From Betaproteobacteria bacterium (GTDB lineage Bacteria > Pseudomonadota > Gammaproteobacteria > Burkholderiales > Rhodocyclaceae): DNA of 33,674 nt. The position numbers and the translations under genes are program-made. The notes beneath the pieces are model-generated. The model was not told the DNA's origin and searched no databases. It worked only from the letters and a program-made list of their open reading frames with translations. Positions 5,918 to 32,160 of this stretch are shown in pieces. Positions within the stretch are counted from its first letter, which is position 1; each line of letters begins with the position of its first letter. The DNA is taken from positions 1 through 33,674 of the forward strand of contig JAGVUA010000027.1 of the NCBI GenBank assembly GCA_019136545.1, in the 5' to 3' direction.

Positions 5918-6735
5918 AGTCATTTCATCGACGAAGCTCGCGACCGGCGGCATCGCCGGCACCGGTTGTGGCAGTGCGATCGGCAGTCCAGCGCGACGGC
6001 CTGCGTGCCGACCAGCTGCTGGTCGAGCGCGGCCTGGCCCCTTCGCGCACCATGGCGCAGCGGCTGATCGAAGCGGGGCGGGTGTCGTGGCCCGAAGGCG
6101 TGATCGCCAAGCCTTCCGTCCTGCTGCCGGCGACGGCGGAACTGGCGGTGAGGGACGATGATGCCGACCGCTGCGACCGCTATGTTTCGCGCGGCGGCAT
6201 CAAGCTGGCGGGCGCGCTGGCGCGCACGAAGCTCGACGTGCGCGGCAAGGCCTGCCTCGATGTCGGCCAGAGCACCGGCGGCTTCACGGACTGTTTGCTG
6301 CAAGCCGGCGCGGCCGGCGTGGTCGGCATCGACGTCGGCCACAGCCAGCTGCATGTTCGTCTGAGGAACGATCCCCGCGTCACCTGCCTCGAGGGCGTCA
6401 ATGCCCGCGATCTCTCAAAGTCAGCCGTGGCAGCACGCCGTTTCGACCTGATCGTCGGCGATCTCAGCTTCATCTCGCTGACGCTGGTGCTGTCGTCACT
6501 GCCGGCGTTGCTGGCCGATGATGGCGACATGCTGCTGCTGGTCAAGCCGCAGTTCGAAGTCGGGCCCGAGAACGTCGGCAAGGGCGGCATCGTGCGCGAC
6601 GCGTCGCTTTACCCTCAGGTTGAAACCAAACTCCGTCAGGCTGCCGAAGCGGCTGGTCTGACGGTCGTTGATTATTTCGAAAGCCCGATCGCCGGCACCG
6701 ACGGCAATCGCGAATTCTTCATCTGGACGAAATGA
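5914..6735 (+). CDS. tlyA: TlyA-family rRNA methyltransferase (hemolysin A family)
   Basis: TlyA homologs combine an S4 RNA-binding domain with an FtsJ-like SAM-dependent methyltransferase and 2'-O-methylate ribosomal RNA. Here the S4 domain is at about residues 29-90 (LRADQLLVERGLAPSRTMAQ), and the SAM-binding loop is CLDVGQSTGGFTDCLL near residues 115-130. FDLIVGDLSFISL and LLVKPQFEVG are further signatures. The GTG at 5914 overlaps the upstream stop as GTGA, but it leaves a basic N-terminal extension of about 28 residues; a GTG near 5968 is an alternative start. It sits beside SAM-cycle genes. Its C-terminal half contains a copy of the dispersed repeat at 6417-6442. Confidence 0.9.
   Translation: MKSFHRRSSRPAASPAPVVAVRSAVQRDGLRADQLLVERGLAPSRTMAQRLIEAGRVSWPEGVIAKPSVLLPATAELAVRDDDADRCDRYVSRGGIKLAGALARTKLDVRGKACLDVGQSTGGFTDCLLQAGAAGVVGIDVGHSQLHVRLRNDPRVTCLEGVNARDLSKSAVAARRFDLIVGDLSFISLTLVLSSLPALLADDGDMLLLVKPQFEVGPENVGKGGIVRDASLYPQVETKLRQAAEAAGLTVVDYFESPIAGTDGNREFFIWTK
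6417..6442 (+). repeat. Dispersed short repeat, copy 1 (inside tlyA)
   Basis: AAAGTCAGCCG is followed by TGGCAGCACGCCG. It is read in the frame SKSAVAARR within TlyA, just before the conserved FDLIVGD segment. See the finding on the repeat family. Confidence 0.7.
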
Positions 6736-6779
6736 ACGCCCCCCACTCCCCGACCCCCGCCCCGAGGGCGAAGGTGACG

Positions 6780-6853
6780 ACGGTTCAGCCGCGCGTGCGC
6801 GGCTACCGTGTTTCTGATTCGCTGCCTCCTTGGGGCGGCCCTACGGAGGCAGC
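6780..6853 (+). promoter_or_regulatory. Structured leader of metF with sequestered ribosome binding site
   Basis: Two hairpins fill the end of the tlyA-metF gap. The first pairs ACGGT (6780-6784) with ACCGT (6805-6809), then AGCCGCGC (6787-6794) with GCGCGGCT (6797-6804), with a two-base bulge. The second is a perfect nine-base stem, GCTGCCTCC (6821-6829) with GGAGGCAGC (6845-6853). Its 3' strand contains the metF Shine-Dalgarno GGAGG and ends one base before the ATG. The loop can form a smaller GGG/CCC hairpin. It looks like a translational control element, but I do not recognise a known riboswitch class. Confidence 0.6.
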
Positions 6854-7681
6854 ATGAGCATCGAACTATCCGTCGAGTTTTTTCCGCCGCAGACGCCCGA
6901 AGGCGCCGAGAAGCTGCGCGCCACGTGGACGAAGCTGGCGACGCTGAAACCGGCCTTCTTCTCCGTCACCTTCGGCGCCGGCGGCTCGACGCAGGACCGC
7001 ACCTTCGACACCGTCGCCGAGATCCGCGCCGCCGGCCTGCCCGCCGCACCGCACCTCTCCTGCATCGGCTCGACCCGGGGGCGCGTCCGCGAAATTCTCC
7101 AGCGCTACCGCGATGTCGGCATCCGGCGCATCGTCGCCCTGCGCGGCGATCTGCCATCGGGCATGGCCGAGCCGGGCGAACTGCGCCACGCCAACGAGCT
7201 GGTGGACTTCATCCGCACCGAGACCGGCGACTGGTTCGAGATCGAAGTCGCCGCCTATCCGGAGTACCACCCGCAGTCGAAGAACCCGCGCGACGACCTG
7301 CTCAACTTCAAGCGCAAGGCCGACGCGGGCGCCGACTCGGCCATCACCCAGTTCTTCTACAACGCCGACGCCTACGAGCATTTCGTCGCCGAAGCGCGCG
7401 GCGCCGGCGTGACGATCCCGATCATCCCCGGCGTCATGCCCATCGCCAGCTTCAGCAAGCTCGCGCGCTTCGCCGATGCCTGCGGCGCCGAGATTCCGCG
7501 CTGGATGCGCAGGAAGTTCGAAAGCTACGGCGACGACACCGCCTCGATCCGCGCCTACGGCCTCGACGTCGTCACCCAGCTTTGCGAGCGCCTGATCGCG
7601 GCCGGCGCTCCCGGCCTGCACTTCTACACGCTCAACCAGGCGAGCTTGACGATGGAAATCGCCAAGCGCCTGGCGTTGTGA
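6854..7681 (+). CDS. metF: Methylenetetrahydrofolate reductase
   Basis: MetF reduces 5,10-methylene-tetrahydrofolate to 5-methyl-tetrahydrofolate with bound FAD, supplying the methyl group for methionine synthesis. The 275 residues match a bacterial MetF TIM barrel. Signatures are SVEFFPPQTPEGAEKL at the N-terminus, SVTFGAGGSTQ near residues 36-46, IVALRGD near 93-99, and AITQFFYNAD near 161-170. The start is the ATG at 6854, directly after GGAGGCAGC. It follows tlyA by 118 bases and closes the SAM-cycle block. Because its ribosome binding site is buried in a perfect stem, regulation at translation initiation is likely. Confidence 0.95.
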   Translation: MSIELSVEFFPPQTPEGAEKLRATWTKLATLKPAFFSVTFGAGGSTQDRTFDTVAEIRAAGLPAAPHLSCIGSTRGRVREILQRYRDVGIRRIVALRGDLPSGMAEPGELRHANELVDFIRTETGDWFEIEVAAYPEYHPQSKNPRDDLLNFKRKADAGADSAITQFFYNADAYEHFVAEARGAGVTIPIIPGVMPIASFSKLARFADACGAEIPRWMRRKFESYGDDTASIRAYGLDVVTQLCERLIAAGAPGLHFYTLNQASLTMEIAKRLAL

Positions 7682-7724
7682 ACCATCAAGCCTGGCGAAG
7701 CGGCCGCACCGCGAACGGTAGTCG

Positions 7725-7750
7725 AAAGTCAGCCGCCCCGGTACCTCGGC
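7725..7750 (+). repeat. Dispersed short repeat, copy 2 (after metF)
   Basis: AAAGTCAGCCG is followed by CCCCGGTACCTCGG; the right half is the most diverged of the eight copies. It lies in the 85-base convergent gap between metF and the isochorismatase-fold gene. Confidence 0.65.
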
Positions 7751-7766
7751 TCGATCGTCGGCCGCG

Positions 7767-8489: not shown

Positions 8490-8544
8490 CGACCTCGCAT
8501 GTCGGAACGGTTAAGAGAACCGTCGACCCGCACGGGGCAAGGTT

Positions 8545-8578: not shown

Positions 8579-8584
8579 GGGGTC

Positions 8585-8600: not shown

Positions 8601-8609
8601 CAGCGGGCA

Positions 8610-9275
8610 TCAGGCGGATGCGGCGATCAGGCGGGCCAGCCCGTCGGCGTTCTTGATGCGCGTCACGCCGCGACCGGTCTCGACGTAACCTTGCGCGACG
8701 AATTCGCGTATCAGGCGCGCGACCACCTCGCGCGTGGTGCCGAGGTGCGCCGCCATCCGCTGCTGCGTCATCGCCAGTTCGCCGGCGGCGGAGGCATGAA
8801 TCAGCAACAGGTTGGCGAGCCGCTGGTCGAGCTTGTAGGCGTGGACCTCCTCGAGTTCCTCCATCAGACGGAACACCAGCGTGGACAGCGCCCGCACGGT
8901 GACATCCTGGATGGAAGGTTCCTTCTGGAACAGTTCGCGGAACACCGGACCGGGAATCAGCGCCACGGTGGTGCCCGCCTCCGCCTGCACCCAGGCGGGG
9001 TAGCGCAGGTCGTTGAACAGGCTGTTGAGCGCGAAGACGCAGGTCTCGCCTGGGCTGATGAAGTAGAGCGTCGCCTCGGTGCCGTCCGGCGCGATGGCAT
9101 AGACGCGCAAGCGGCCCCGCACCACGAAGTAGGCGCCGGAAATGGATTGACCGGGTTGCAGGATGGGTGCCGGCGGACCGCACTGGACCAGCACGGCGCC
9201 CCGCCGCAACAGCTTGCGGCTGCCCTCCGAAAGTTGCCGGAAGGGTCCGAGGGATTCCAGGGAGGACGACGTCAT
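8610..9275 (-). CDS. Crp/Fnr-family transcriptional regulator
   Basis: This 221-residue regulator has a cyclic-nucleotide-binding-like sensor domain (about residues 10-125: ISGAYFVVRGRLRVYAIAPDG, then TLYFISPGETCVFALNSLF) and a C-terminal winged helix-turn-helix (about 168-205: MTQQRMAAHLGTTREVVARL). Only two cysteines (32 and 79) are visible, so an FNR-type iron-sulfur cluster is unlikely; haem, cyclic nucleotide or redox sensing remain open. I start at the ATG at 9275, as the upstream extension runs through the divergent intergenic region. It diverges from a cytochrome c peroxidase and reads toward an exported hydrolase, both candidate targets. Confidence 0.87.
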   Translation of the reverse strand: MTSSSLESLGPFRQLSEGSRKLLRRGAVLVQCGPPAPILQPGQSISGAYFVVRGRLRVYAIAPDGTEATLYFISPGETCVFALNSLFNDLRYPAWVQAEAGTTVALIPGPVFRELFQKEPSIQDVTVRALSTLVFRLMEELEEVHAYKLDQRLANLLLIHASAAGELAMTQQRMAAHLGTTREVVARLIREFVAQGYVETGRGVTRIKNADGLARLIAASA

Positions 9276-9293
9276 GGCCGGCGATTCTACTGC

Positions 9294-9311
9294 TGTGTAG
9301 CTTTTGGTACA
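9294..9311. promoter_or_regulatory. Weak candidate operator between regulator and peroxidase genes
   Basis: TGTGTA (9294-9299) and GGTACA (9306-9311) form an imperfect TGT...ACA dyad in the divergent 98-base gap. It resembles the perfect TGTAAC-N4-GTTACA site at 8585 only loosely. Confidence 0.25.
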
Positions 9312-9373
9312 GACCGCCGAGCGGCAGAAGCCTAGGCTTTTCCTGCGCCGCATATTTTTTGTGGAGAAACACC

Positions 9374-10759
9374 ATGAGCAAGGAAAACCTCGACTTTTTC
9401 ACGGTCGGCGTCATCGCTGTGCTGGCCGGCGCCGGCATCGTCGTGATGCTGATAAAAACCGAACTGGCGCGGGCGTCGGGCGTCAAGAGCGGCGGCAGGC
9501 TATTCCTCGCCGCTGCGCTCGGCATGGGCATAGTCGCCTTCACCATCAAGCTCACCACCTTCATGTTGATGGCGATGCTGCCCAAGCAGATCATCAACCC
9601 GCTGATGGTCGAGCGCCGTTTCGTGGAAATCCTGCCGGCCGATTGGTCGAAGATGCCGTACATCCGGCGTAACGACGGTCCGTACCGGTGGCAGGCGCTG
9701 CCGTTGCAGGCACCGGCACCGGCCGCCAATCCGACCACGCCGGAAAAGACGGCCCTGGGCAAGCGGCTGTTCTTCGATCCCGATCTGTCGCTGACGCGCG
9801 ACGTGTCCTGCGCCTCCTGCCACGACGTCAGCGGCGGCTCGGGCGTCGACGGACGTCGCACCTCGAAAGGCATCCGCGGCCAGCTCGGCGGCCGCAACGC
9901 ACCCACCGTCTGGAACGCCGCCTTCCAGGCCGTGCTGTTCTGGGACGGCCGCGCGTCCTCGCTCGAGGAGCAGGCCAAGGGTCCGCCGCTCAATCCGATC
10001 GAAATGGGCATGCCCTCCGGGGATGCCGTCGCGCAGCGCGTGCGCGAGAGCGCCGGCTACCGCGAGGACTTCGACCGCGCCTTCGGCAAGGGCGCGGAGA
10101 TCACCTTCGACCGCATCGCCATGGCCATCGCCGCCTACGAGCGTACCCTGATCACGCCGAACACGGCCTACGACCGCTTCGTGCGCGGCGACCGCAATGC
10201 GCTGAGTCCAGCGCAGATGCGCGGCATGGCGCTATTCCAGTCCATCGGCTGCATCGCCTGCCATTTCGGCGCCAACTTCAGCGGCGCCAGCTTTGCCAAC
10301 CTCGCCGCCGGCGACCTGCCGGCCGCCGTCGCCACCGATAACGGCCGCTTCCGCATGTTTCCGGGCAATGACACGCCCTACATCCAGCGCTACGATCTGG
10401 TCGCCGACAAAGGGGCCGCCGGCCCCGGCAGCGACCGCGGCATCTGGCGCATCCCGTCGCTGCGCAACGTCGCCATCACCGGCCCCTGGCTGCACAACGG
10501 CTCGGTGGACAAGCTCGAGGAAGTCGTGCGCATCATGGCCACCTCGCAACTGGCCGCCAGCGTCGACACGGTGCCGCAACCGGGCCGGACCATCTTCTGG
10601 TCGCCCGCCGACCACAGCGTCAGCAAGGTCGACCGGCCGGTGCTGAGCAATGCCGACATCAAGGACATCGTCGCCTTCCTCTGGGCGATCACCGACGACG
10701 AACTGGCGACCAAAGTCAGCCGTCGCGGCACGCCGCCGGTGAAACCGACCAAAGGCTAG
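9374..10759 (+). CDS. Membrane-anchored di-haem cytochrome c peroxidase
   Basis: Family members reduce hydrogen peroxide to water with electrons from the respiratory chain, facing the periplasm. The 461-residue protein has two N-terminal hydrophobic segments (about residues 9-27 and 40-64) in place of a simple cleavable signal, so it should be membrane-tethered. Two c-type haem motifs are visible: CASCH at 146-150 and CIACH at 293-297. The C-terminal signature WRIPSLRNVAITGPWLHNG is typical of the CcpA/MauG superfamily. GGAG lies seven bases before the ATG. It diverges from a Crp/Fnr regulator. The last residues, including KVSRRGTPP, come from a dispersed-repeat copy. Confidence 0.9.
   Translation: MSKENLDFFTVGVIAVLAGAGIVVMLIKTELARASGVKSGGRLFLAAALGMGIVAFTIKLTTFMLMAMLPKQIINPLMVERRFVEILPADWSKMPYIRRNDGPYRWQALPLQAPAPAANPTTPEKTALGKRLFFDPDLSLTRDVSCASCHDVSGGSGVDGRRTSKGIRGQLGGRNAPTVWNAAFQAVLFWDGRASSLEEQAKGPPLNPIEMGMPSGDAVAQRVRESAGYREDFDRAFGKGAEITFDRIAMAIAAYERTLITPNTAYDRFVRGDRNALSPAQMRGMALFQSIGCIACHFGANFSGASFANLAAGDLPAAVATDNGRFRMFPGNDTPYIQRYDLVADKGAAGPGSDRGIWRIPSLRNVAITGPWLHNGSVDKLEEVVRIMATSQLAASVDTVPQPGRTIFWSPADHSVSKVDRPVLSNADIKDIVAFLWAITDDELATKVSRRGTPPVKPTKG
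10712..10737 (+). repeat. Dispersed short repeat, copy 3 (3' end of the peroxidase gene)
   Basis: AAAGTCAGCCG is followed by TCGCGGCACGCCGCC, essentially the consensus. It encodes KVSRRGTPP in the C-terminal tail of the peroxidase. Confidence 0.75.
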
Positions 10760-10881: not shown

Positions 10882-10902
10882 TTTCCCGGAATTTCCGCCG
10901 CC

Positions 10903-12225
10903 ATGACCATTTTTTCTCCCCTCGCCCGTTTGACGGGTTCGTTGCGCCGCCATCCGTGGCGTGCCTTCCTGCTCCTCCTGGCGCTGGCCGGCGCCGCGAC
11001 CGGCGTGTACTTCCTTCGCGGGTCCGATCCCGGCGCCGCGGAGGCGCCAAGCGCCCCTCGGGCGGGCGGCCGGGGCTTCGGCCCCGGCGGACCACAGCCG
11101 ATCACGGTTGCCGAAGTGGCGGTCAAGGATGTGCCGATCTGGCTGTCGGCCATCGGCAGCGCCGTGCCGCGCAATCTGGTGACAGTCCGCGCGCGCGTCG
11201 ATGGCCTGCTGCTCAGGGTGCATTTCACCGAAGGACAGACGGTGAAGGCGGGACAACTGCTGGCGGAAATCGACCCGGCGCCGTTCCAGGCGCAATTGGC
11301 GCAGGCCGACGGCCAGCTGGCGCGCGACACGGCCCAGTTGAACAACGCCCGCCTCGACCTGGCGCGCTACCGCGATCTCTGGGCCAAGGATTCCATCGCC
11401 AAGCAGCAGCTCGACACCCAGGAGGCTCTCGTCCGGCAGTATGAGGGCGCCGTCCAAAACGATCGCGGCGTGGTCGACAACGCCAAACTGCAACTGGGCT
11501 ACACGCGCGTCACCGCGCCCGCATCCGGCCGCATCGGCCTGCGTCAGGTCGACCCCGGCAACCAGATCCACGCCGCCGACGCCAACGGCCTCGCCTCCAT
11601 CGCCCAGATGCAACCGATGACCGTCGTCTTCGCGGTGCCGGAAATCCAGTTGCCGCGCATCAGCCGGCGCCTGGCCGACGGCGACGTCCTGACGGTGGAA
11701 GCCTGGGACCGCGAGCAGAAGAACCTGCTGGCCAAAGGGCGGCTGCTCACCACCGACAACCAGATCGATGCCGCCACCGGCACCATCAAGCTGAAGGCCG
11801 AGTTCGCCAATGCCGACCACCAGCTCTTCCCGAACCAGTTCGTCAATGCCCGGCTGCTGCTCGGCATGCGCAAGGACGCGACGGTGGTGCCGGCGGCCGC
11901 CGTGCTGCGCGGCAGTCAGGGTTCGTTCGTCTATACGGTCGATGGCGAAAGCACGGTCAAGTCGGTGCCGGTAACGCCGGGGGTCGCCGATGGCGACATC
12001 GTCGCCGTCGCCGGCGCCCTGAAGCCGGGCGACAAGGTCGTCCTCGACGGCGGCGACAAATTGCGCGACGGCGCCAAGGTCGAAGTCGTCTCCGCGGAGC
12101 AGCGCCGGCAAGGCCAGGCACCGGCGGAAGGCAAGCCCGGCGGCCGCGGCAAGTGGCGCAAGGACGGCGCCCCTGGCATGGGAGAAGCCCCGGGCGGCAG
12201 CCCCGGCAACGGACGTCACCCCTGA
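10903..12225 (+). CDS. mdtA: RND efflux periplasmic adaptor, MdtA type
   Basis: This 440-residue membrane-fusion protein should link the inner-membrane pumps to the outer-membrane channel. It has an N-terminal membrane anchor (about residues 20-38), then [26 protein letters not shown] (first lipoyl half), a coiled-coil hairpin with [24 protein letters not shown], and [20 protein letters not shown] (second lipoyl half and barrel). The tail is rich in Gly, Pro and Lys. An in-frame TTG at 10873 would add ten residues but overlaps the dyad region, so I use the ATG at 10903. It heads a four-gene operon. Confidence 0.9.
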
Positions 12226-12238: not shown

Positions 12239-15200
12239 ATGAACCCGTCGCGTCTCTTCATCCTGCGGCCGGTCGCCACCTCGCTGCTGATGGTGGCGAT
12301 CCTGCTGGTCGGGCTGGTGGCCTACCGCTTCCTGCCGATCTCGGCACTGCCCGAAGTCGACTACCCGACCATCCAGGTCATGGCGCTCTATCCCGGCGCC
12401 AGCCCGGAAGTCGTCACCTCGTCGATCACGGCGCCCCTGGAGCGGCAGTTCGGCCAGATGCCGGGGCTGGCCCAGATGTCCTCGGCCAGCTCCGGCGGCG
12501 CCTCGGTCATCACCCTGCGTTTCAGCCTCAACCTCACGCTCGACGTCGCCGAACAGGAAGTGCAGGCGGCCATCAACGCCGCCGGCAACCTGCTGCCCAC
12601 CGACATGCCGCTGCCGCCGGTGTACAGCAAGGTCAATCCGGCCGACGCGCCCATCCTGACCCTGGCGGTCACCTCGCCGATGCTGCCGGTACCGCGCATG
12701 CACGACCTCGTCGAATCGCGCGTAGCGATGAAAATCTCGCAGATTCCCGGCGTCGGCATGGTCAGCATCGCCGGCGGCCGGCGGCCGGCGGTGCGCATCC
12801 AGGCCAACCCGGCGGCGCTGGCCAACCTCGGCCTGTCGCTCGACGACCTGCGGACAGCCGTCGGCGCCGCCAACGTCAACAGCGCCAAGGGCAGCTTCGA
12901 CGGCGCGCTGCGCGCCTCGACCATCGACGCCAACGACCAGCTGAAATCGCCCGCCGACTACGCGGCGCTGGTCGTCGCCTACAAGAACGGCGCGCCGATC
13001 CGCCTGCGCGACGTTGCCGACGTCGTCGAGGACGCTGAAAACACCCGTCTGGCCGCCTGGTCGGACACGCGGGAAGCGGTCATCCTGAACATCCAGCGCC
13101 AACCGGGCGCCAACGTCATCGAAGTGGCCGATCGCGTCAAGCAGGCCCTGCCGCAGTTGCGCACCAGCCTGCCGGGCAGCATCGACGTCGCCATCCTGAC
13201 CGACCGCACCACCACCATCCGCGCCTCGGTGGCCGACGTCCAGTTCGAACTGGTGCTGGCGGTGGCGCTGGTCGTCATGGTGATCTTCCTGTTCCTGCGC
13301 ACGCTGTCGGGCACGCTCATTCCGGCCCTGGCGGTGCCGCTGTCGCTGGTCGGCACCTTCGGCTTCATGTACCTGGCCGGCTTCTCCATCAACAACCTGA
13401 CGCTGATGGCGCTGACCATCTCGACCGGCTTCGTCGTGGACGACGCCATCGTCATGATCGAGAATATCGCCCGCTATGTCGAGGACGGCGAAGCGCCGCT
13501 CGCCGCAGCGCTGAAAGGCGCCCGGCAGATCGGTTTCACGATCATCTCGCTGACGGTTTCCCTGATCGCCGTGCTGATCCCGCTGCTGTTCATGGGCGAC
13601 GTAGTCGGCCGCCTGTTCCACGAGTTCGCCATTACCTTGTCGGTCGCCATCCTGATCTCCGCCTTCGTGTCGCTGACGCTGACGCCCATGCTCTGCGCCC
13701 GTTTGCTGGAGCACGTACCGGCAGAAAAACAGGGCCGCTTCTACCACTGGAGCGGCCGCTGGTTCGATCGCATCATCGCCCGCTACGGCAAAATGCTGCA
13801 ATGGGTGCTGGCGCGCCAGCCGGTGACGCTGGCCGTGGCCATCGCCACGCTGGTCCTGACCGTCCTTCTGTACCTCTGGATTCCCAAGGGCTTCTTCCCG
13901 GTGCAGGACACCGGCGTCATTCAGGCGATCACCGAGGCGCCGCAGTCGATTTCGTTCGCCGCCATGGCCGACCGTCAGCAAGCGCTGGCCGAAAGCCTGC
14001 TGCAGGACCCGGCGGTGGCGAGCCTGTCGTCCTTCATCGGCGTCGACGGCACCAACACCACGCTGAACAGCGGCCGCATGCTGATCAACCTGAAGCCGCT
14101 GGCGCAGCGGCCGCGCGCGCCACAGGTGATCCGCGACCTGGCCGAACGCGCCCGCGGCGTCGCCGGCATCACGCTCTACATGCAGCCCGTGCAGGACCTG
14201 ACGGTCGAGGACCGGGTGTCGCGCACCCAATACCAGTTCATGCTCTCGACGCCGGACATGGCGCTGCTCGGCAAGACCGTGCCGGCCCTGGTCGAGCGCT
14301 TGCGGCAGGTTCCCGAACTGATCGACGTCACCTCGGACCTGCAGGACCAGGGCTTGCAGGCCTTCGTCGAGGTGGACCGCAACGCTGCCGGCAAGCTGGG
14401 CGTCACCGTCGCCGCGATCGACAACGCCCTCTACAACGCCTTCGGCCAGCGCCTGATCTCGACCATCTTCACGCAATCCAACCAGTATCGCGTCGTCCTC
14501 GAAGTCAAGCCCGAGTTCAAGCTCGGGCCCGAAGCCCTGGCCAGCCTCTACGTACCGGGCGCCAACAGCGTGCAGGTGCCGCTGTCCTCGGTGGTCCGCA
14601 TCATCGAACGGCCCACTGCCCTGGCCATCAACCACGTCGGCCAGTTCCCCGCCGCCACCGTCAGTTTCAACCTCGCCCCCGGCGCCTCGCTGGGCAAGGC
14701 GGTGGAGGCGATCAAGGCGGCAGAGGCGGAATTGAACCTGCCTGCCGCCATCGAGACGAGCTTCCAGGGCGCCGCGCTGGCCTTCCAGTCCTCGCTGATC
14801 AACACCCTGCTGCTGGTGCTGGCGGCGGTGGTCACGGTCTACATCGTGCTCGGCGTCCTTTATGAAAGCTACATCCATCCGGTCACCATCCTGTCCACGC
14901 TGCCGTCCGCCGGCGTCGGCGCGCTGCTGGCGCTGTGGCTGACCGGCTCGGGCCTCGACGTGATCGGCATCATCGGCATCGTCCTGCTGATCGGCATCGT
15001 CAAGAAGAACGCCATCATGATGATCGACTTCGCGCTGGAGGCACAGCGCGAACAGGGCCTGCCCGCGCACGAGGCGATCTACCAGGCCAGCCTGCTGCGC
15101 TTCCGGCCGATCCTGATGACGACCCTGTCGGCGCTGTTCGGCGCACTGCCGTTGATGATGGGCGGCGGCTTCGGCGCCGAGTTGCGCCAGCCGCTGGGTT

Positions 15201-15326: not shown

Positions 15327-18300
15327 GTGAACATTTCGCGTCCTTTCATCGAGCGGCCGGTCGCCACCACCCTGCTGACCCTGGGCATCTTGCTGGCCGG
15401 CACCATCGCCTTCTTCCGGCTGCCCGTCGCGCCGCTGCCGCAGGTGGATTTCCCGACCATTTCCGTGCAGGCGTCCCTGCCCGGCGCCAGCCCGGAAACC
15501 ATGGCGGCCACCGTGGCCACGCCGCTGGAACGGACGCTGGGGCGGATCGCCGGCGTCACCGAGATCACGTCGACCAGTTCCCTGGGATCGGCGCGCGTCA
15601 TCATCCAGTTCGACCTCGACCGCAACATCGACGGCGCCGCGCGCGACGTGCAGGCGGCGATCAACGCCGCCCGGCCGCTGCTGCCGTCGGGCATGCCGAG
15701 CATGCCGACTTACCGCAAGATCAACCCGGCCGACATGCCGGTGATGATCCTGTCGCTCACCTCCGACATCTACTCGCGTGGCCAGATGTACGACGCCGCC
15801 TCGACCATCCTCGCGCAGCGACTGTCGCAGGTCGAAGGCATCGGCCAGGTGTCGGTGAGCGGCAGCGCGCTGCCGGCCGTGCGCGTCGAGATCGACCCGC
15901 AGCGCCTGTCCAGTCTCGGCGTCGGGCTGGAGGACGTCCGCAACGCCATCGTCGCCACCAACGCCAATCGGCCGCTGGGCGCCGTCGAACGCGGCGACCG
16001 CTACTGGCAGATCGGCGCCAACGACCAGGCCAAGACTGCCGCCGAGTACCGGCCCCTGATCGTGCGCTGGCAGAACGGCGCCGGCCTGCGCCTGGGCGAC
16101 GTCGCCGAGGTCGTCGATTCCGTGCAGGACGTGCGCAACTACGGCGCCGCCAACGGCAAGCCGGCCATCCTGCTCATCCTCTCCCGTCAGCCCGGCGCCA
16201 ACATCATCGAAACGGTCGACCGCGTGCGGGCGCTGCTGCCGCACCTGCGCGCGATGATTCCCCCGGCCATCGACCTCAACGTGGTCATGGACCGCACGCC
16301 GACCATCCGCGGTTCGCTGCGCGAAGTCGAGCGCACCCTGATCTTCTCGGTGGCGCTGGTGATCCTGGTGGTGTTCCTCTTCCTGCGCCGGGCGCGGGCG
16401 GCGCTGATTCCGAGCGTCGCGGTGCCGGTGTCGCTGGTCGGCACCTTCGGCATCATGTATCTGTGCAACTACAGCCTCGACAACCTGTCGCTGATGGCGC
16501 TAACCATCGCCACGGGCTTCGTCGTCGACGATGCCATCGTCGTGCTGGAGAACATCGTCCGCCACATCGAGGCCGGGCAGCCGCCGCGCGCCGCCGCCCT
16601 GCTCGGCGCGCGCCAGATCGGCTTCACCGTCGTTTCCATCAGCCTCTCGCTGGTCGCCGTCTTCATTCCCGTGCTGCTGATGGGCGGCATCGTCGGCCGG
16701 CTGTTCCGCGAATTCGCCGTCACGCTGTCGGCGGCCATCCTGGTGTCGATGGTGGTGTCGCTGACGGCGACGCCGATGATGGCCGCCCATCTGCTGCCGC
16801 CGCGCCAACGGAGCGCGCCGGGCCGCTGGGAACGCTGGGCCGGACGCGTCCACGACCGGCTGATGCGCGGCTACCGCCGCAGCCTGGCCTGGTCGCTGCG
16901 CCACTGGCCGGTCATCCTCTGCCTGCTGTTCGTCGTCATCGGCCTCAACGTCTTCCTCTACTACCGCATCAGCAAGGGCTTCTTCCCGCAGCAGGACACC
17001 GGCCGCATCATGGGCAACATCCAGGCCGACCAGAGCATTTCCTTCCAGGCGATGGAGGAGAAGATGCGGCGCTTCATGGCCATCGTCGCCGCCGATCCCG
17101 CCGTCGACAACGTCGTCGGCTTCACCGGCGGCGGCCAGCGCAACGCCGGCAACCTGTTCATCTCGCTCAAGCCCCTGCGCGAGCGGCAACTGTCCGTCGA
17201 TCGGGTCATCGGCCGCTTGCGCGGCAAGCTCGCCCACGAACCCGGCGCCAACCTGTTCCTGGTCGCCGCCCAGGAGGTGCGCATCGGCGGCCGGCAAAGC
17301 AATGCCGCCTTCCAATACACCTTGCAGGCCGACGAGCTCGACGACCTGCGTCACTGGGAACCGATCATCCGACGCACGCTGGCCAACCTGAAGGAGCTGG
17401 CGGACGTCAATACCGACCAGCAGGACAAGGGGCTGCAGACTTCCCTGGTCATCGATCGCGACGCCGCCTCGCGCCTGGGCCTCAGCATGCGCACCATCGA
17501 CGCGACGCTCAACGACGCCTTCGGGCAGCGCCAGGTATCGACCATCTACAACCCGCTCAACCAGTACCGTGTGGTCATGGAGCTGGCGCCGCCCTGGCTG
17601 CAGAATCCGGCCACGCTGGAAACCCTGCAATTCAGCAGCGCCAACGGCGGCCAGGTGCCGCTCAAGGCCTTCGCCCGGCTGGAAACCACCAACACGCCGC
17701 TGGCGGTGAATCACCAGAGCGGTTTCCCCGCCTCGACGATCAGCTTCAATCTCCCCGAAGGCGTCACGCTCGGCCAGGCGTCGGCGGCGCTGGAGCGGGC
17801 CTTGGCGGCGCAAGGCGTGCCGACGGCCATCCACGGCAGTTTTCAGGGAACGGCCAAGGCCTTCCAGCAATCGCTGGCCAGCCAGCCGCTGCTGATCCTG
17901 GCCGCCATCGTCGCCATCTACCTCGTGCTCGGCATGCTCTACGAGAGCCTGGTGCATCCGCTGACCATTCTCTCGACGCTGCCCTCGGCCGGCGTCGGCG
18001 CCCTGCTCGGCCTGATGGCCTTCAACACCGAGTTCAGCATCATCGCCCTGATCGGCGTGCTGCTGCTGATCGGCATCGTCAAGAAGAACGCCATCATGAT
18101 GATCGACTTCGCCATCGAGCGGCAGCGGCGGCTGCGCACCAGCGCCGGCGATGCCATCTACCGCGCCTGCCTGCTGCGCTTCCGCCCCATCATGATGACG
18201 ACGCTGGCCGCCGTCTGCGGCGCCGTGCCGCTGGCGATCGGCAGCGGCGACGGCGCCGAGCTGCGCAACCCGCTCGGCATCTCCATCGTCGGCGGCCTGC

Positions 18301-18425
18301 TGGTCAGCCAGGTGCTGACGCTCTACACCACGCCGGCGGTCTATGTCGCACTCGACCGCCTGCGCGCCCGCTGGGCGCGTCGGCGCGCCGCCCGGCGGGC
18401 CGTCCGCCCGGCATTCACCGCATGA
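15327..18425 (+). CDS. mdtC: RND efflux permease, MdtC type
   Basis: This is the second RND permease of the operon, 1032 residues, starting at a GTG seven bases after the previous stop codon. [19 protein letters not shown] and [10 protein letters not shown] mark the N-terminus. Asp401-Asp402 in [15 protein letters not shown] and the lysine of [13 protein letters not shown] are intact, so both subunits keep the proton relay. The side-by-side arrangement of two unlike permeases matches MdtB and MdtC of the B2C heterotrimer, and the heteromeric assembly is inferred from that. Its stop overlaps the start of the outer-membrane factor gene as ATGA. Confidence 0.92.
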
Positions 18426-19831
18426 AGGCCCACGCCATGAACCGTCCCTGTCTGTTGCTGCCGCTGCTGCTCGGCGCCTGCAGCCTGATGCCCGACTACC
18501 AGCGCCCGCCGCTGGAGGTGCCGTCCGCCTATCGGGAGGCCGGCGCCTGGCAAAGGGCGGCGCAAAGCTTCGCGGTGCCGGAACGCTGGTGGCAGGCCTT
18601 CGGCGATCCGGTACTCGACGCCCTGGAAGCGCAGCTGGTGGTGGATAACCAGAACATCAAGCTGGCCGAAGCGCAATACCGCGCCGCTCGCGCCGCGGTG
18701 GACGGCGCCCGCGCCGGCCTGTGGCCCAGCCTCGGTCTCAACGCCGGCGCCAGCCGCGGCGCCAGCGCCACGACCGGCTCGGGTTCGGCGATCGCCAATC
18801 TCTATACGCTCTCCGCGCAATCCTCGTGGGAAGTGGATCTCTGGGGCCGGGTGCGCAGCGGCGTTGCCACCGCCGCGGGGAAAGAAGAAGCCGCCGAAGC
18901 CGCCGTCGGCGCCGCGCGCCTGTCGGCACAGGCCCTGCTGGCGCAGACGTACTTCCAGCTGCGCACCGCCGAGGCGCAGGCGGCGCTGTTCACGCGCAGC
19001 GTCGCCGCCTACGAGCGCTTCCTGCAACTGACGCGCAACCGGCGCGAGGCCGGCGTCGCCTCGACGCTCGACGTCGCCCAGGCCGAGACGCAGCTCAACA
19101 GCGCCCGCTCGGCGCTGGCCGAAGCGCAACTGCAGCGCGCGCAAGCCGAGCACGCGCTGGCGACGCTGCTGGGCAAGCCGCCGGCGGCGGTGAGCATTCC
19201 CGCCGCGGCCGAACGACTCGCTGAGGTACCGCCGGTGCCGGCGCTGCTGCCGTCGACGACCCTGGAGCGGCGTTACGACATCTACGCCGCCGAGCGCCAG
19301 GTGGCGGCCGCCAACGCCCAGATCGGCGTCGCCCGCGCCGCCTGGTTTCCGGTGCTCGACCTTGCCGCCAGCGGCGGTTATCGGAACGACGCCATCGCCC
19401 ACCTGATCAGCCTGCCCAACCGCATCTGGTCGATCGGCCCCGCGCTCGCCCTGTCCCTGTTCGACGGCGGCGCCCGCTCGGCGGCGCTCGAACAGGCGCA
19501 GGCCGGCGTCGACCAGGCGGCGGCGGCCTACCGGCAGACCGTGCTCGCCGCCTTCCAGGAGGTCGAGGACAATCTCGCCGCCGCCCGCCTGCTGGCCGAG
19601 GAGGCCGCCAGCCAGGACGCCGCGCTGGCCGCGGCGCGCAAGGCGCGCGAGATCGCCGAGAACCAGTACCGCGCCGGCATCGTCGCCGCCCTCAACGTCA
19701 TCACTGCGCAGACCAGCGAGCTCAATGCGGAAAACGCTGCGCTCTCGCTGTGGAGCCGGCGCATGGCGGCCGCCACGCAGTTGCTCAAGAACACCGGCGG
19801 CCGGGCATGGCCGGGCCGGCCGACGGAGTAA
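18422..19831 (+). CDS. Outer-membrane efflux lipoprotein, NodT family
   Basis: This 469-residue TolC-like channel of the NodT lipoprotein type completes the efflux complex. The lipobox is LLLGAC with Cys20 as the acylated residue, followed by [18 protein letters not shown]. Two TolC repeats are recognisable, with [14 protein letters not shown] in the first and [20 protein letters not shown] in the second. I list the ATG at 18422, which overlaps the mdtC stop; the ATG at 18437 (MNRPCLLLP) is an equally good start and has AAGG upstream. The stop codon TAA at 19829-19831 is partly formed by a dispersed-repeat copy, so the natural end may once have been different. Confidence 0.9.
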
Positions 19832-19855
19832 AGTCAGCCGTCGCGGTACGCCATC
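19830..19855 (+). repeat. Dispersed short repeat, copy 4 (overlaps stop of the efflux lipoprotein gene)
   Basis: AAAGTCAGCCG is followed by TCGCGGTACGCCATC. The first two bases supply the end of the TAA stop codon. It is one base off copy 3 over 23 bases. Confidence 0.75.
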
Positions 19856-19859
19856 TGCG

Positions 19860-22410: not shown

Positions 22411-23147
22411 ACGCACCGCTGCGCAGCTTCCAACAGTTCCAGATGGCCTTCGGCCGCCGCTGCCGCGATCCGCGCGCCGCGCGCCCGCCCGGCGTGTCGG
22501 CACGACGCATGGCGGTCTACGAGGCGCTGCTGTTCAACAATATCACCGGCTTTCTGGACACCTGCTTCCCGCTCTGCCGCGAACTGATCGGCGGTGCGCG
22601 CTGGCGGCATCTCAACCGCGCCTTCTTCCGCGACTGGCGCAGTCACACCCCCATCTTCCGCGAGATCCCGCACGAGTTCCTGCGCTACCTGAAATCAGCC
22701 CGGCAGCCGCTGCCGGCCTGGTTCCGCGAACTCGCGCACTACGAATGGGTGGAACTGGCGGTGGGAACAAGCGCGGCATCCTGTCCGTCGCACGACGTGG
22801 ACGGCGACCTCATGCAAGGCCGGCCGCTCGTCAATCCGACGCTGCTGAACCTCGCCTACGACTGGCCCGTGCATCGCATCGGCCCCGGCTGGCGACCCCG
22901 CAAGCCCGCCGCGACGCATCTGCTGGTGTTCCGCAACCGGGACGACGAGGTTCGCTTCGTCGAGGCAAACGCCACGACGGCGCAGCTGGTGGCGCGCCTC
23001 GTGGAATCGGATATCTCAGGGGCGCTAGCCATCGAGCGGTTCGCTGGCGAACTCGATGAAAAGTCAGCCGCGGCGGTACGCCACCATGGCCCTGCCATTC
23101 TTGATGGCCTGCGCCACCAGGGCGCCATTTCCGGAATACGCATATGA
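22407..23147 (+). CDS. hvfC: HvfC/BufC-type partner protein (DUF2063)
   Basis: This is a 246-residue protein with the DUF2063 N-terminal domain (about residues 5-100: [48 protein letters not shown]). In known systems the partner binds the precursor and presents it to the MNIO enzyme; it is itself not known to be catalytic. It overlaps hvfB and hvfX by four bases each (ATGA), consistent with a coupled operon. A dispersed-repeat copy is embedded near its C-terminus and encodes EKSAAAVRH. That region may therefore be recently altered. Confidence 0.88.
23060..23085 (+). repeat. Dispersed short repeat, copy 5 (inside hvfC)
   Basis: AAAGTCAGCCG is followed by CGGCGGTACGCCACC, read in the frame KSAAAVRH. 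Copies 4 and 5 also share a looser CTGCGCYACCAG match further downstream, at different distances. Confidence 0.72.
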
Positions 23148-23755: not shown

Positions 23756-24499
23756 CGCCGCGCGGCCGCTGCCGATGCGGCGGATCGCCGCCGACTGGGC
23801 AAAGACCGGGATGACGGTGGAGAGCAAGGCCATCGCCAGCGCATAGAGGTAAACCGGCGGCGGCTGGATCAGCGCCGACAGCGGCTGGGTGGCGGCGAAA
23901 TGCGCGAGCGTCGCCGCGGTCGACACCAGCATCGCCAGGGCGGTAAATCGCGCAACGCCTGTTCGCGCCAGCATCGCGCCGCTGCCCGTAAGGTAAAGGG
24001 CGTAACAAATCGAGGAAACGAAGACCAGGCTGGCGCCGATCCACACCGCCGAGGTTTTCGCCGACATGTCGAGATCGTGGGCGAACGCGGCGGCGACGCC
24101 GAGATAGCACAGCGCCACCGCCGCCCATTCGCGGCGGGTGATGGGCTGGCGATACAGCATGGCGCCGAACAGCAGCGTCAGGGTGGGATAAGTGAACAGG
24201 ATCAGCCGCTCGAGGCCGGCGGTGATGTACTGCAGGCCGAGGAAGTCGAGGATGCTGGCGCCGTAGTAGCCGAGCAGGCCGAGCACGACGGTTGCGGCCC
24301 AGTCGGAACGCGTCAATGGCGGCGCGTTGCGCGATTCGCGCAGGCCGATCCAGAGGAACACCGGCAATGAAAACGCCATGCGCAGGGCCAGCAGCGTTAC
24401 CGCCTCGACCGGCGCGGCGGCATACGCCAGCTTGACGAAGATCGCCTTGGCGGAAAAGCCTAAGGCGGCGAAAACCGCCAGCCAGACGCCGGTGTTCAG
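23618..24499 (-). CDS. EamA/DMT-family transporter with apparent CTG start
   Basis: This drug/metabolite-transporter family protein has ten predicted membrane helices and two EamA repeats; the substrate is unknown. The first ATG in frame (24379) would cut off most of the first helix and leave 253 residues. Translating upstream gives an intact helix, [20 protein letters not shown], beginning at a CTG at 24499-24497 that overlaps the upstream TGA as CTGA. From there the protein has 293 residues, the normal family length. No ATG, GTG or TTG is available in between. Its 3' end overlaps the extended hvfX frame. Confidence 0.75.
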
Positions 24500-26034
24500 C
24501 GCTTGCGCCCGCCGAGAATGGAACCGAGCACGCCGCGGATGATCTCGCGGCCGACCTGCGAGCCCATGGCCCGCGCCGCGCTTTTCGCCGCCGATTCGAT
24601 GATGCCCGGATGGTGGCCGCCGCGCGGACCGGTGCTGCCGCCGAGAATGCCGCCGAGCGCGCTGCCCAGGCCGCCGAACATGCCGCCGGAGGATTCCTCG
24701 TCCGGCGCTGCCGCCGGCGTGCCGCCGCTACTGACTTTCGCGCCGCCGTTGCTCCCATTGTTCCCGTTGCCCTTGAGCTTCTCATAGGCCGACTCGCGGT
24801 CGACGCCCTGCTCGTAATGGCCGTAGATCGTCGAGCCCTGGATGGCGGCGGTGCGCTCTTCCGGCGTCAGCGGGCCGATGCGCGAACCGGGCGCCAGCAC
24901 GAAGGCGCGTTCGACCACTTGCGGCGTGCCCTTCTCGTCGAGGAAGGAAATCAGCGCCTCGCCGACGCCGAGCTCCATGATCGCCTTCTCGGCGTCGAAC
25001 TTGGGATTGGCGCGCAGCGTCTGCGCCGCCGTCTGCACGGCCTTCTGGTCGCGCGGCGTGAAGGCGCGCAGGGCGTGCTGGACGCGGTTGCCGAGCTGGG
25101 CCAGCACCTTGTCCGGCACGTCGAGCGGATTCTGGGTGACGAAGTAGATGCCGACGCCCTTGGAGCGGATCAGCCGCACGACCTGCTCGATCTTCTCGAG
25201 CAGCGCCGGCGGCGCCTCGTTGAACAGCAGGTGCGCCTCGTCGAAGAAGAACACCAGCTTGGGCTTGTCCAGGTCGCCGGCCTCGGGCAGCTGCTCGAAG
25301 AGCTCCGCCATCAGCCAAAGCAGGAAGGTGGCGTAGGTCTGCGGCGAAGTCATCAGCTTGTCGGCGGCGAGGATGTTCACCACGCCGCGGCCGGCCTCGG
25401 CCTGCATCAGGTCGTTGATGTCGAGCATCGGCTCGCCGAAGAACTTGGCGCCGCCCTGCTGCTCCAGCGTCAGCAGGCCGCGCTGAATGGCGCCGATGGA
25501 AGCAGCGGAGATGTTGCCGTATTCGGTGGTGAACTGCTTGGCGTTGTCGCCGACGTGCTGGACCATGGCGCGCAGGTCCTTCAGATCCAGCAGCAGCAGG
25601 CCGTTGTCGTCGGCGATCTTGAACACCAGCTGCAGCACGCCGCCTTGCACGTCGTTGAGGCCGAGCAGGCGCGAGAACAGCAGCGGCCCCATGTCGGAGA
25701 CGGTGGCGCGCACGGGGTGGCCCGCCTCGCCGAACACGTCCCAGAATACCGCCGGATTCTTCACCGGCGCCCAGTCCTTGACGCCAAGCTTGTCCAGCCG
25801 CGCCGCCAGCTTGTCGGATTTCACGCCCGCCGCGGCGATGCCGGAAAGGTCGCCCTTGACGTCGGCCAGGAACACCGGCACGCCAATGGCGGAAAACTGC
25901 TCGGCCAGCCTTTGCAGGGTGACGGTCTTGCCGGTACCGGTGGCGCCGGTGATCAGGCCGTGGCGATTGGCGAGCGCCGGCAGCAGGCAGATTTCAGTAT
26001 CGCCGGCCTTGGCGATGGGCAAGGGACGAGACAT
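24496..26034 (-). CDS. HerA-like ATPase, DUF853/YjgR family
   Basis: This 512-residue P-loop ATPase is related to HerA/FtsK-type translocases. Walker A is GATGTGKT at 30-37, and Walker B is [12 protein letters not shown] near 258-269. The C-terminal third is rich in Gly, Ser and Asn ([25 protein letters not shown]) and looks disordered before a short basic end, LGGRKR. Members are widespread and uncharacterised; a DNA-related function is only inferred from the ATPase class. A dispersed-repeat copy encodes [10 protein letters not shown] inside the flexible tail. It probably shares a transcript with the transporter that follows. Confidence 0.88.
24713..24738 (-). repeat. Dispersed short repeat, copy 6 (inside the HerA-like gene)
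   Basis: On the minus strand, AAAGTCAG is followed by TAGCGGCGGCACGCCGG. It lies in the sense orientation of the gene and encodes KVSSGGTPA in a low-complexity linker. Confidence 0.7.
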
Positions 26035-26053
26035 GGCGGGCACTCCCCGAATG

Positions 26054-26073
26054 GTAAAATCCGACCATTTTAC
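26054..26073. promoter_or_regulatory. Dyad with back-to-back TAAAAT boxes between the HerA-like gene and yebC
   Basis: GTAAAAT (26054-26060) and ATTTTAC (26067-26073) are perfect inverted repeats around six bases, in the 55-base divergent gap. Each arm reads TAAAAT in its own direction, so the dyad may be two overlapping -10 elements or an operator covering both promoters. Convincing -35 boxes were not seen. Confidence 0.45.
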
Positions 26074-26089
26074 GCATAAGGAATCCGCC

Positions 26090-26821
26090 ATGGCCGGTCA
26101 CAGCAAATGGGCCAATATCCAGCACCGCAAGGGGCGCCAGGACGAAAAGCGCGGCGCCGCTTTTTCCAAGGTTGCCAAGGAAATCACCGTCGCGGCGAAG
26201 ATGGGTGGCGGCGACCCGGGCTTCAACCCGCGCCTGCGCCTGGCGGTGGACAAGGCCAAAGCCATCAACATGCCCAAGGACAAGATCGAGAACGCCATCA
26301 AGAAGGGTACCGGCGAACTCGAGGGCGTGAATTACGAGGAACTGCGCTACGAGGGCTACGGCATCGCCGGCGCGGCAGTGATGGTGGATTGCCTGACCGA
26401 CAACAAGACGCGCACCGTCGCCGAAGTGCGCCATGCCTTCAGCAAGCACGGCGGCAACCTGGGCACCGACGGTTCGGTGGCCTTCATGTTCAAGCATTGC
26501 GGGCAGATCGTCTTCGCGCCGGGCGTCTCCGAGGACAAGGTGATGGACGCCGCCATCGAGGCCGGCGCCGAGGACGTGTCGACCAGCGACGATGGTTCCA
26601 TTGAAGTCATTACCGGCCCCGGCGATTTCCTGGCCGTCAAGGACGCGCTGGCCAAGGCCGGGCTGACGCCGGAATTCGCCGAGGTGACCATGAAGCCGCA
26701 GAGCGAGAGCGAATTGGCCGGCGACGACGCCGCCAGGATGCAAAAGCTGCTGGATGCGCTCGAAGGCCTCGACGATGTGCAGGAGGTCTACACTACCGCC
26801 GTGATGGAGGCATCGCCGTAA
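26090..26821 (+). CDS. yebC: YebC/PmpR family protein
   Basis: This 243-residue YebC/TACO1-family protein begins with the diagnostic [18 protein letters not shown]. Further family blocks are [29 protein letters not shown] in the N-terminal half and [20 protein letters not shown] in the centre. Members have been described as DNA-binding regulators and, more recently, as helpers of translation through difficult stretches. AAGGAA lies six bases before the ATG at 26090. In many Betaproteobacteria yebC directly precedes ruvC; here two genes intervene. A palindrome GGCGGCGCGCCGCC at 26850-26863 follows the stop codon. Confidence 0.95.
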
Positions 26822-26849: not shown

Positions 26850-26875
26850 GGCGGCGCGCCGCCACCGCTGACTTT
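26850..26875 (-). repeat. Dispersed short repeat, copy 7 (between yebC and the DMT gene)
   Basis: On the minus strand, AAAGTCAGCGG is followed by TGGCGGCGCGCCGCC. It is the only copy that opposes the neighbouring genes. Its right half coincides with a 14-base perfect palindrome that could form a hairpin after yebC. Confidence 0.65.
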
Positions 26876-30800: not shown

Positions 30801-30990
30801 TGCGCTCCGCGTGTTGATGACATCCTTTGATCTGCGTTCCAAACTTAGCGAAAATGGTCCGGCAGCAGTGGCGGCGATGGATTGGCACCGCTGGGCGGGG
30901 GATTTCCTCTCTTTCTGCCTGGCTGACGAGGCCGGCAACACCCGACGCAATCGTTCAAATACCTTGCCGAACGTTCAGGAATTACGTTGA
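27835..30990 (+). CDS. SEC-C/TPR/GT2 glycosyltransferase-sulfotransferase-GT4 fusion protein
   Basis: This 1051-residue multidomain protein contains, in order: a SEC-C zinc-binding motif (CPCGSG...HCCG, residues 9-22); TPR-like helices (about 34-100); a GT-A family 2 glycosyltransferase (about 147-400, with [25 protein letters not shown] and the DXD-like SDD at 234-236); a sulfotransferase-like domain (about 457-680) with P-loop GMHRSGTSA at 464-472 binding the phosphosulfate donor; and a GT-B family 4 domain (about 711-1035, with [20 protein letters not shown] near 941). No membrane segment or signal is seen. It would build or decorate a surface glycan, possibly sulfated; the acceptor is unknown. 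Codon use looks less GC-biased than its neighbours, suggesting acquisition by transfer. The Shine-Dalgarno is weak. Confidence 0.82.
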
Positions 30991-31036
30991 AATCTTCGTG
31001 CAACCTGCCAACAGGCTCCGGCGCATGTCTTGCGCA

Positions 31037-31576
31037 ATGAGTATCGTCCGGACCATCCGCATCCTCGGCATCGATCCCGGCCTGCGCGTCACCGGATTCG
31101 GCGTCATCGACAAGGCCGGCCAAAAGCTCGCCTACGTGACCAGCGGCTGCGTCAAGACGAAAGACAGCGACAGCCTGCCGGACCGCGTGAAGACCCTTCT
31201 GGAAGGCATCGCCGAAGTCATCGCCACACATGGGCCGGCGGAAGCGGCGGTGGAGAAAGTGTTCGTGAACGTCAATCCGCAGTCGACGCTGCTGCTCGGC
31301 CAGGCGCGCGGCGCGGCGATCTCGGCGTTGGTCGGGGCCGGACTGCCGGTAGCCGAATACACGGCGCTGCAAGTGAAGCAGGCGGTGGTCGGCCACGGCA
31401 AGGCGGCCAAGGAGCAGGTACAGCAGATGGTCATGCGCCTGCTTAGCCTGCCGGGCGCACCCTCGGCCGACGCCGCCGACGCGCTGGCCTGCGCCATCTG
31501 CCACGCCCACGGCGGCCAGGGTCTGGGCAACATCGCAACGCGCGGCTTCAGGGTACGCAAGGGGAGACTCGTATGA
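31037..31576 (+). CDS. ruvC: Holliday junction endonuclease RuvC
   Basis: RuvC cuts Holliday junctions symmetrically, working with the RuvAB motor. At 179 residues it has normal length. [17 protein letters not shown] carries the first catalytic aspartate (Asp13), [24 protein letters not shown] the catalytic glutamate, and [14 protein letters not shown] the C-terminal aspartates. An ATG at 31025 adds four residues and is an alternative start. It overlaps ruvA by four bases. Confidence 0.95.
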
Positions 31577-32160
31577 TAGGACGCATCGCCGGCACGCTGG
31601 TCGAGAAGAATCCGCCGCAGATCACGGTCGACGTCGGCGGTGTCGGCTACGAACTCGAAGTGCCGATGAGCACGTTCTACAACTTGCCCGCGCTCGGCGA
31701 GCCGGTGGCGCTGGTCACGCACCTGGTGGTGCGCGAAGATGCCCATTGCCTGTACGGCTTCGGGGCGGATGACGAGCGCACCGTCTTCCGGCAGCTCATC
31801 AGGATTTCCGGCATTGGCGCGCGTACGGCGCTGGCCTTGCTCTCCGGTCTGTCGGTCAACGAGCTGGCGCAGGCGGTGGCCTTGCAGGAATCCGGACGGC
31901 TGGTGAAAATCCCCGGGATCGGCAAGAAGACCGCCGAGCGCCTGCTGCTCGAACTCAAGGACAAGCTGAAGGTCACCGGGCTTGCCGCCAAAGTCAGCCG
32001 CGGCAGCACGCCGCCCGATGCCAGTGCCGACATCCTCAACGCCCTGCTGGCGCTCGGCTACAACGAGCGGGAAGCGCTGGGGGCCATGAAGCAACTGCCT
32101 ACGGACATTGCCGTATCCGAAGGCATTCGCCAGGCGCTGAAGTCGCTGTCGAAAGGCTGA
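31573..32160 (+). CDS. ruvA: Holliday junction DNA-binding protein RuvA
   Basis: RuvA (195 residues) binds the four-way junction and loads RuvB. The OB-fold N-terminus [28 protein letters not shown], the helix-hairpin-helix segments [18 protein letters not shown] and [23 protein letters not shown], and the C-terminal RuvB-contacting domain ([14 protein letters not shown]) are all present. The acidic/flexible linker between domains II and III contains [15 protein letters not shown], which is encoded by a dispersed-repeat copy. The start overlaps the ruvC stop as ATGA. Confidence 0.95.
31990..32015 (+). repeat. Dispersed short repeat, copy 8 (inside ruvA)
   Basis: AAAGTCAGCCG is followed by CGGCAGCACGCCGCC. 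It encodes KVSRGSTPP in the interdomain linker of RuvA, in the same frame as the copies in the peroxidase and the HerA-like gene. Confidence 0.72.

Follow-up and report, generated by a model that had tools for sequence, protein, structure and literature searches.

The 33,674-nt stretch of contig JAGVUA010000027.1 analysed here (hereafter the window) belongs to a Rhodocyclaceae genome of 3.40 Mb in 162 contigs (G000, genus g1) and carries eight copies of a short dispersed repeat built on the octamer AAAGTCAG. This repeat corresponds to a bipartite motif of 24 bp, composed of the AAAGTCAG core, a semi-conserved middle and a CG(C/G)CG block, and is most likely a DNA uptake sequence (DUS), a reading to which we give a probability of ca. 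0.7. Its copy number on both strands, its gain by substitution, its conservation, its dialects and its patchy presence together match DNA uptake sequences and, among the options raised by a first-pass annotation made from the letters of the window alone, a DNA-uptake signal is the one that fits best. We infer that uptake is the driving process and that a ComP-family minor pilin may be the receptor.

Motif anatomy and abundance

The octamer had been reported at eight places of the window and is present at all of them; 100 dinucleotide-preserving shuffles averaged 0.40 occurrences and never exceeded 3. The repeat is also real at the genome scale, since AAAGTCAG-N10-ACGCC has 351 matches in the whole of G000 (172 on the plus and 179 on the minus strand) versus 1 for the reversed control. 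A logo drawn from 161 distinct copies has sharp bounds, spanning 24-25 bases, with flanks devoid of conservation. Because this set was selected by pattern, the motif was rechecked with fewer constraints imposed. The right block re-emerges when the octamer alone is fixed, and an iterated weight matrix, seeded from octamer copies without requiring the octamer, detected 94 sites in 348 kb of G000 versus 1 in simulated sequence (82 of the 94 with a perfect octamer) and 90 sites in 420 kb of G015, a member of genus g11, again versus 1 (71 with a perfect octamer). The strongest conservation lies at positions 0-7 (AAAGTCAG) and 19-23 (CG, C or G, CG), position 18 being an A in 70% and 93%. When applied to other genomes, these matrices detected 0-1 sites for G181 (120 kb), 2 for G005 (110 kb) and 1 for G028 (80 kb). 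The sequence CGTG-GCGA-CACG was considered as a hairpin; this reading was dropped on inspection alone of the logo and of the octamer-only profile, in which the middle bases vary.

In the G000, G015 and G101 samples, the 8-mer with the highest over-representation is AAAGTCAG or a one-base-shifted overlap of it, with observed/(expected+1) values of ca. 19, 16 and 10, while the top 8-mer of the G005, G010, G016, G020, G024, G028 and G181 samples only reaches ca. 3.7-5.4; these samples are of unequal size (80-348 kb), those of the comparison genomes are smaller, and G101 is the only one of the first three that was picked regardless of copies. The G000 stretches, L154-L157 of G015 and nine of the ten G015 stretches L134-L143 were picked near listed copies, so that densities and word counts are biased upward; stretches chosen by position are L214-L220 and those of G101. 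To be counted, a copy needed a perfect octamer and no fewer than 6 or 7 points out of 10 for its right half.

Distribution and dialects among relatives

Across 61 genomes including G000 itself, a strict pattern of the motif has any match in 16. Beyond G000, hundreds of matches are restricted to the same-genus G001 (290), G002 (357) and G004 (377), so that three of the five same-genus relatives are motif-rich, the others, G003 and G005, having 2 and 4 matches. Elsewhere, the family members G015 and G028 have 20 and 9 matches and the remaining eight matching genomes 1 each. A broader pattern, run on 199 family genomes among which G005 was not drawn, indicated a distinct dialect in genus g11, with 378 matches in G015, 323 in G101 and 315 in G148 (none in each of their reversed controls) and only 3 in G181. 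In genus g24, G028 has 59 matches and G112 has 1; among the others outside g1, G194 has 5 and every other genome at most 3. All reversed controls of this pattern yielded 2 matches across the 199 genomes and a strict form of the dialect motif has 412 occurrences in the complete chromosome of G015, versus 0 for its control. The g1 and g11 consensus sequences are identical at positions 0-7, 18-20 and 22-23, whereas positions 8, 10, 11 and 21 distinguish them.

Searching the named collection for a near-exact g1 motif returned 73 stretches, which come from four Rhodocyclales/Rhodocyclaceae metagenome-assembled genomes (MAGs; JACRIZ, JACRIX, JAEHDA and PMIH) and from one Zoogloeaceae MAG having a single copy. 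A G004 flavour of the motif with a T-rich middle, GGTACGCC, is common among the G004 places listed. By eye, the G004 ruvA copy (corresponding to site 31990 of the window) carries this G004-type middle, which suggests that motif copies follow the dialect of their own genome and gives a hint of concerted evolution.

A phage origin of the motif was considered and rejected: the viral collection contains the g1 pattern in a single contig (L292, one copy) and the g11 pattern in none. This lone g1-type copy (L292:2340-2362) is located on a 7.5-kb contig that may be a prophage or host DNA. Querying plasmids with the ruv region contributed no further evidence.

Origin of the copies by substitution

Motif copies were aligned to orthologues lacking the motif, in which a clean insertion would appear as a missing block of 23-25 bp. 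No clean insertion was found in the 15 alignments of G015 with motif-poor G181 (15 of 71 copies being alignable across the site), 11 of which are free of gaps within and next to the motif and 4 of which have short gaps, the octamer being kept by G181 in one case. The same result was obtained for G101 and G148 against G181 (0 of 6 alignments, from 33 copies and partly for the same sites as in the G015 set; 2 gapped), for G000 against G003 and G005 (0 of 4, from 90 copies; 2 gapped) and for G000 against other genera (0 of 6, from 90 copies; 4 gapped). As an alignment may be broken in two by a long gap, pairs of flanking matches were also examined for hidden insertions; this revealed two splits, with length differences of 67 and -12, neither of which is close to 24. 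The sites thus differ by substitution, which contradicts the earlier suggestion of a tiny mobile or template-copied repeat.

Codons were further compared in 13 ungapped pairs, of which two involve synonymous changes only and 11 include amino-acid changes. Both species encode an identical peptide, AESQLLRDAG, at L135:3090, using the codons GAA AGT CAG TTG in G015 versus GAG AGC CAG CTT in G181. In the second fully synonymous case (L154:17333), the right half is poor and only the octamer is taken into account. The first-pass annotation had envisaged that the same bases might simply be kept through protein conservation; this explanation was rejected on the basis of the codons in these 13 pairs, and it fails for the copies compared because identical amino acids are encoded by other codons in the relative. 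Motif copies therefore arise by substitution at alignable sites, one strong copy through synonymous changes alone, and the lack of clean insertions in these alignments together with this synonymous creation argues strongly against a copied repeat.

Conservation in motif-bearing relatives

When G000 copies were compared with the motif-bearing relatives of the same genus (90 tested in each), the octamer was intact in 23 of 35 aligned copies (5/7, 10/16 and 8/12), as compared with 5.3 expected from a flank identity of 0.79. In genus g11, it was intact in 18 of 25 copies versus 7.3 expected, and in 22 of 29 in the reverse comparison; both expectations treat bases as independent. Gaps fall within the motif in 12 of the 35 same-genus alignments, and one of those with G004 shows 18 gap columns where a displaced copy is present. 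The copies located in ruvA, in the DUF2063 gene and in the HerA linker are examples of conserved copies in the window.

Placement, orientation and spacing

According to gene calls made with our own codon-usage caller, the 82 copies sampled in 348 kb of G000 comprise 59 within genes (35 in the direction of the gene, 24 opposed to it), 4 overlapping a gene end and 19 intergenic, and the 71 copies sampled in 420 kb of G015 comprise 53 inside genes (23 with, 30 against), 4 overlapping a gene end and 14 intergenic. The preference for the direction of the neighbouring gene that had been noticed for seven of the eight window copies is thus not general. A preference for the 3' end of genes is likewise weak or absent, the successive gene fifths containing 8, 12, 9, 15 and 15 copies in G000 and 9, 10, 10, 16 and 8 in G015. 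On the antisense side, reading frames are unevenly used in G000 (1 copy in f1, 4 in f0 and 19 in f2); the consensus would read a stop in one of the three frames. Spacings below 1 kb are depleted in G000 (12% versus 25% simulated, p 0.005), the "unselected" stretches of this spacing analysis being not fully unselected.

No replichore polarity was seen on the complete G015 chromosome, on which the strict dialect motif occurs 203 times on the plus and 209 times on the minus strand, and on which 100 of the 203 plus copies are evenly spread within the first 1.66 of 3.15 Mb (53%); this evenness rests on those 100 listed plus copies, minus places not being listed. A polar chromosome-organising signal, another of the options first put forward, is disfavoured by these data. 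So is an RNA processing or terminator-linked element, given that most of the sampled G000 copies, in either orientation, are located within genes, with four more overlapping a gene end. An inverted-pair, terminator-like arrangement was also discarded, with no inverted pair within 150 bp among the 82 sampled G000 or the 71 G015 copies, one same-strand pair in G015 and one G000 pair outside the sample. The latter consists of opposite copies located ca. 110 bp apart (G000:C39:11017-11039, minus, and 11129-11151, plus) and is the only such close pair noticed in G000.

Competence machinery and candidate receptor

ComEC was found in 10 of 12 genomes, the two others being the incomplete MAGs G003 (motif-poor) and G004 (motif-bearing), and type IV pilins were found in all 12. 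A ComP_DUS-family pilin (PF16732, above the cut-off) occurs in 22 of 22 genomes, among them some that are devoid of the motif. Since this machinery also exists in motif-poor and motif-free genomes, it does not track the motif and is not discriminating; designating a receptor by correlation was consequently abandoned, neither ComEC nor the ComP_DUS pilins separating bearing from non-bearing genomes. A sequence search with the G000 pilin against solved structures returned 21 matches to general pilins (best E value 7e-10), none of which is named ComP. Pilin-like genes were seen in clusters of two or three neighbours in L272 and L281 (G028), L277 (G001), L289 (G002), L270 (G101) and L291 (G005).

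G003 and G005 in g1 and G181 in g11 are nearly motif-free (2, 4 and 3 matches); G005 and G181 have ComEC and all three have a ComP-family pilin. These genomes may have lost or replaced uptake specificity, or may never have acquired it.

Comparison with known uptake sequences

By sequence, the motif is neither the neisserial DUS nor the uptake signal sequence (USS) of Pasteurellaceae, although it resembles both in kind. Like the Neisseriaceae DUS, which is read by the minor pilin ComP, it is abundant on both strands, has lineage dialects with a fixed core and is patchy in its family; the reverse strand of the octamer also contains CTG, and a ComP_DUS-family pilin is encoded here. For the Neisseriaceae, PMC3630211 describes dialects that retain CTG at +6 to +8 and A at +10, together with family members having no obvious DUS. 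The reverse strand of the present motif, CTGACTTT, differs from these in that CTGA is followed by a C (CTGAC), in place of the A at +10.

With the USS, the motif shares a short strong core with conserved flanking segments and a substitution origin in genes. The USS is described in PMC1626085 as having two subclade types and as arising in genes by substitution and not by insertion; the insertion test published there, in which 24% of the alignments had gaps, had the same outcome as ours. Its core, AAGTGCGGT / ACAAGCGGT, has AT-rich flanks (PMC1626085), whereas AAAGTCAG is followed by a GC-rich extension and occurs in another bacterial class. USS and DUS are themselves held in PMC12616744 to have independent origins. 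In the sources consulted, uptake sequences are reported in two families, the Pasteurellaceae and the Neisseriaceae, and, among the open-licence papers listed, searches yielded no report of an uptake sequence in Rhodocyclaceae or its genera; octamer searches likewise yielded none among the papers listed.

Proposed mechanism and alternative explanations

In the proposed scheme, the motif would be recognised during the uptake of free DNA by a receptor that is exposed at the cell surface and belongs to the competence/type IV pilus machinery, so that motif-carrying fragments would be imported and recombined preferentially. As a result, any base change improving the match would tend to spread (molecular drive), hundreds of copies could be built by substitution wherever the protein sequence tolerates them, and each lineage could acquire a slightly different consensus, or dialect. 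Biased uptake and recombination have been proposed to push sites toward the uptake preference (PMC1939737), and many recent DUS seem to appear via recombination (PMC2397512).

Several observations weigh against an uptake sequence. The substitution test is thin, as 56 of the 71 G015 and 86 of the 90 G000 copies have no spanning orthologue in the motif-poor stretches compared, and short gaps occur in 4 of 15, 2 of 6, 2 of 4 and 4 of 6 orthologue alignments. Motif-poor G181 and G005 have both ComEC and a ComP_DUS pilin, while no ComEC was found in motif-bearing G004 (85% complete); the pilins of G000 and G101 are 71% identical across genera, yet those of motif-bearing G002 and motif-free G024 are 69% identical. 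The motif, 24 bp long and bipartite, is longer than the 10-12 bp DUS and occurs in a different family. There is some intergenic excess (19 of 82 copies versus 11% non-coding in G000, 14 of 71 versus 13.5% in G015), which a regulatory site would equally show. Finally, even spacing is significant just for the close pairs of G000, with p 0.25 for close pairs in G015 and p 0.09 for the coefficient of variation in either genome.

Some of these features would also be expected of a binding site for an intracellular chromosome-wide protein (nucleoid organiser, segregation or repair factor) kept by direct selection at each site, namely a sharp bipartite recognition-like motif, conserved at orthologous sites in bearing relatives, with depleted close pairs in G000 and some intergenic enrichment. 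We regard this explanation as unlikely: strand totals are equal in G015 with no regional clustering of the 100 listed plus copies (of 203), and drive is a more economical explanation than selection acting site by site on hundreds of unrelated loci. It is also unusual for regulatory sites to exist in hundreds of near-perfect copies, as argued for the USS (PMC1626085). A Chi-like recombination signal or a polar loading signal resembling the FtsK-orienting polar sequences (KOPS) would share with the present motif an over-represented octamer-scale core lying mostly inside genes. Chi, however, is 8 bp long, far shorter than 24 bp, and the strands are equal both in G000 and in G015, with no polarity of the listed plus copies along the G015 chromosome, which makes such signals very improbable. 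Genus-level presence or absence and dialects could follow a modification enzyme, as would be the case for a modification or self-marking site (methylation or another epigenetic tag) accumulated by an unknown process, for which the highly iterated palindrome HIP1 offers a parallel. The motif is non-palindromic, and its 8 + 5 conserved bases exceed typical bipartite Type I sites, so that we give this reading very little credence too. Least probable of all would be a small dispersed repeat inserted or copied by a mobile or template-copying mechanism, in the manner of cyanobacterial small dispersed repeats (SDRs) or Rickettsia palindromic elements. The sharp ends of the motif, its strong consensus and its occurrence in three genera while being nearly absent from close relatives would suit such an element, and cyanobacterial SDRs, which are inserted, resemble it in length (ca. 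20-25 bp) and in their dispersal in genes. The sites aligned here differ from these in showing no insertion, in whole or split alignments, and a strong copy was created synonymously.

Returning to uptake, we consider it more probable than not, on the strength of this in silico analysis, that environmental Rhodocyclaceae (Betaproteobacteria) harbour a third, independently evolved self-specific DNA uptake lineage, having a 24-bp two-block signal with genus dialects, gained and lost within the family, and perhaps a diverged ComP-family minor pilin as receptor. If so, uptake specificity could be studied as it switches on and off between sister species. Pasteurellaceae and Neisseriaceae are the available replicates for the question of whether such sequences reflect selfish drive or mate choice. 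If free-living environmental bacteria offered a third case, in which a single genus contains both motif-rich and motif-poor species, this question could be tested directly by comparison. The motif would also serve as an indication of natural competence that can be read from the genomes of uncultured groundwater and fen lineages.

Copies in the window

A right half shared by all eight window copies had been claimed, which is slightly generous: it is good in six, has one core base off in the copy at 26875 (GCGCC for ACGCC) and is poor in the copy at 7725 (ACCTC). The third and fourth copies are, as claimed, identical at 22 of 23 bases. Six copies are on the plus strand. The first (6417..6440) lies inside a TlyA/FtsJ-like methyltransferase gene (open reading frame, ORF, 5914-6735) at codon 168, in frame 2, and is followed by the weak copy (7725..7748), which has a perfect octamer and is intergenic according to our gene caller. 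The third (10712..10735) is located near the C-terminal end of a MauG/di-haem cytochrome c peroxidase ORF (9167-10759, codon 516 of 530) and the fourth (19830..19853) starts within the stop codon of an outer-membrane efflux protein ORF (16463-19831). The copy at 23060..23083, inside a DUF2063/NGO1945 gene (22407-23147, codon 218), is common to G004. The copy at 31990..32013 occurs in ruvA (31573-32160) at codon 140, in the linker that precedes the C-terminal domain; it is common to G001 and G004 and is absent, without a gap, from G003.

The two minus-strand copies have their 5' ends at 24738 and 26875. That at 24715..24738 falls in a low-complexity linker of a HerA-like helicase gene (24496-26091, minus strand, codon 452), in which G001 also has a copy. 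The other (26852..26875), called intergenic and carrying the single right-block mismatch, has copies at the aligned site in both G001 and G004.

Finally, two segments of ca. 100 bp in G015 (L155:12598-12720 and 14077-14192) match many places of G148 on both strands and perhaps represent a separate dispersed repeat.

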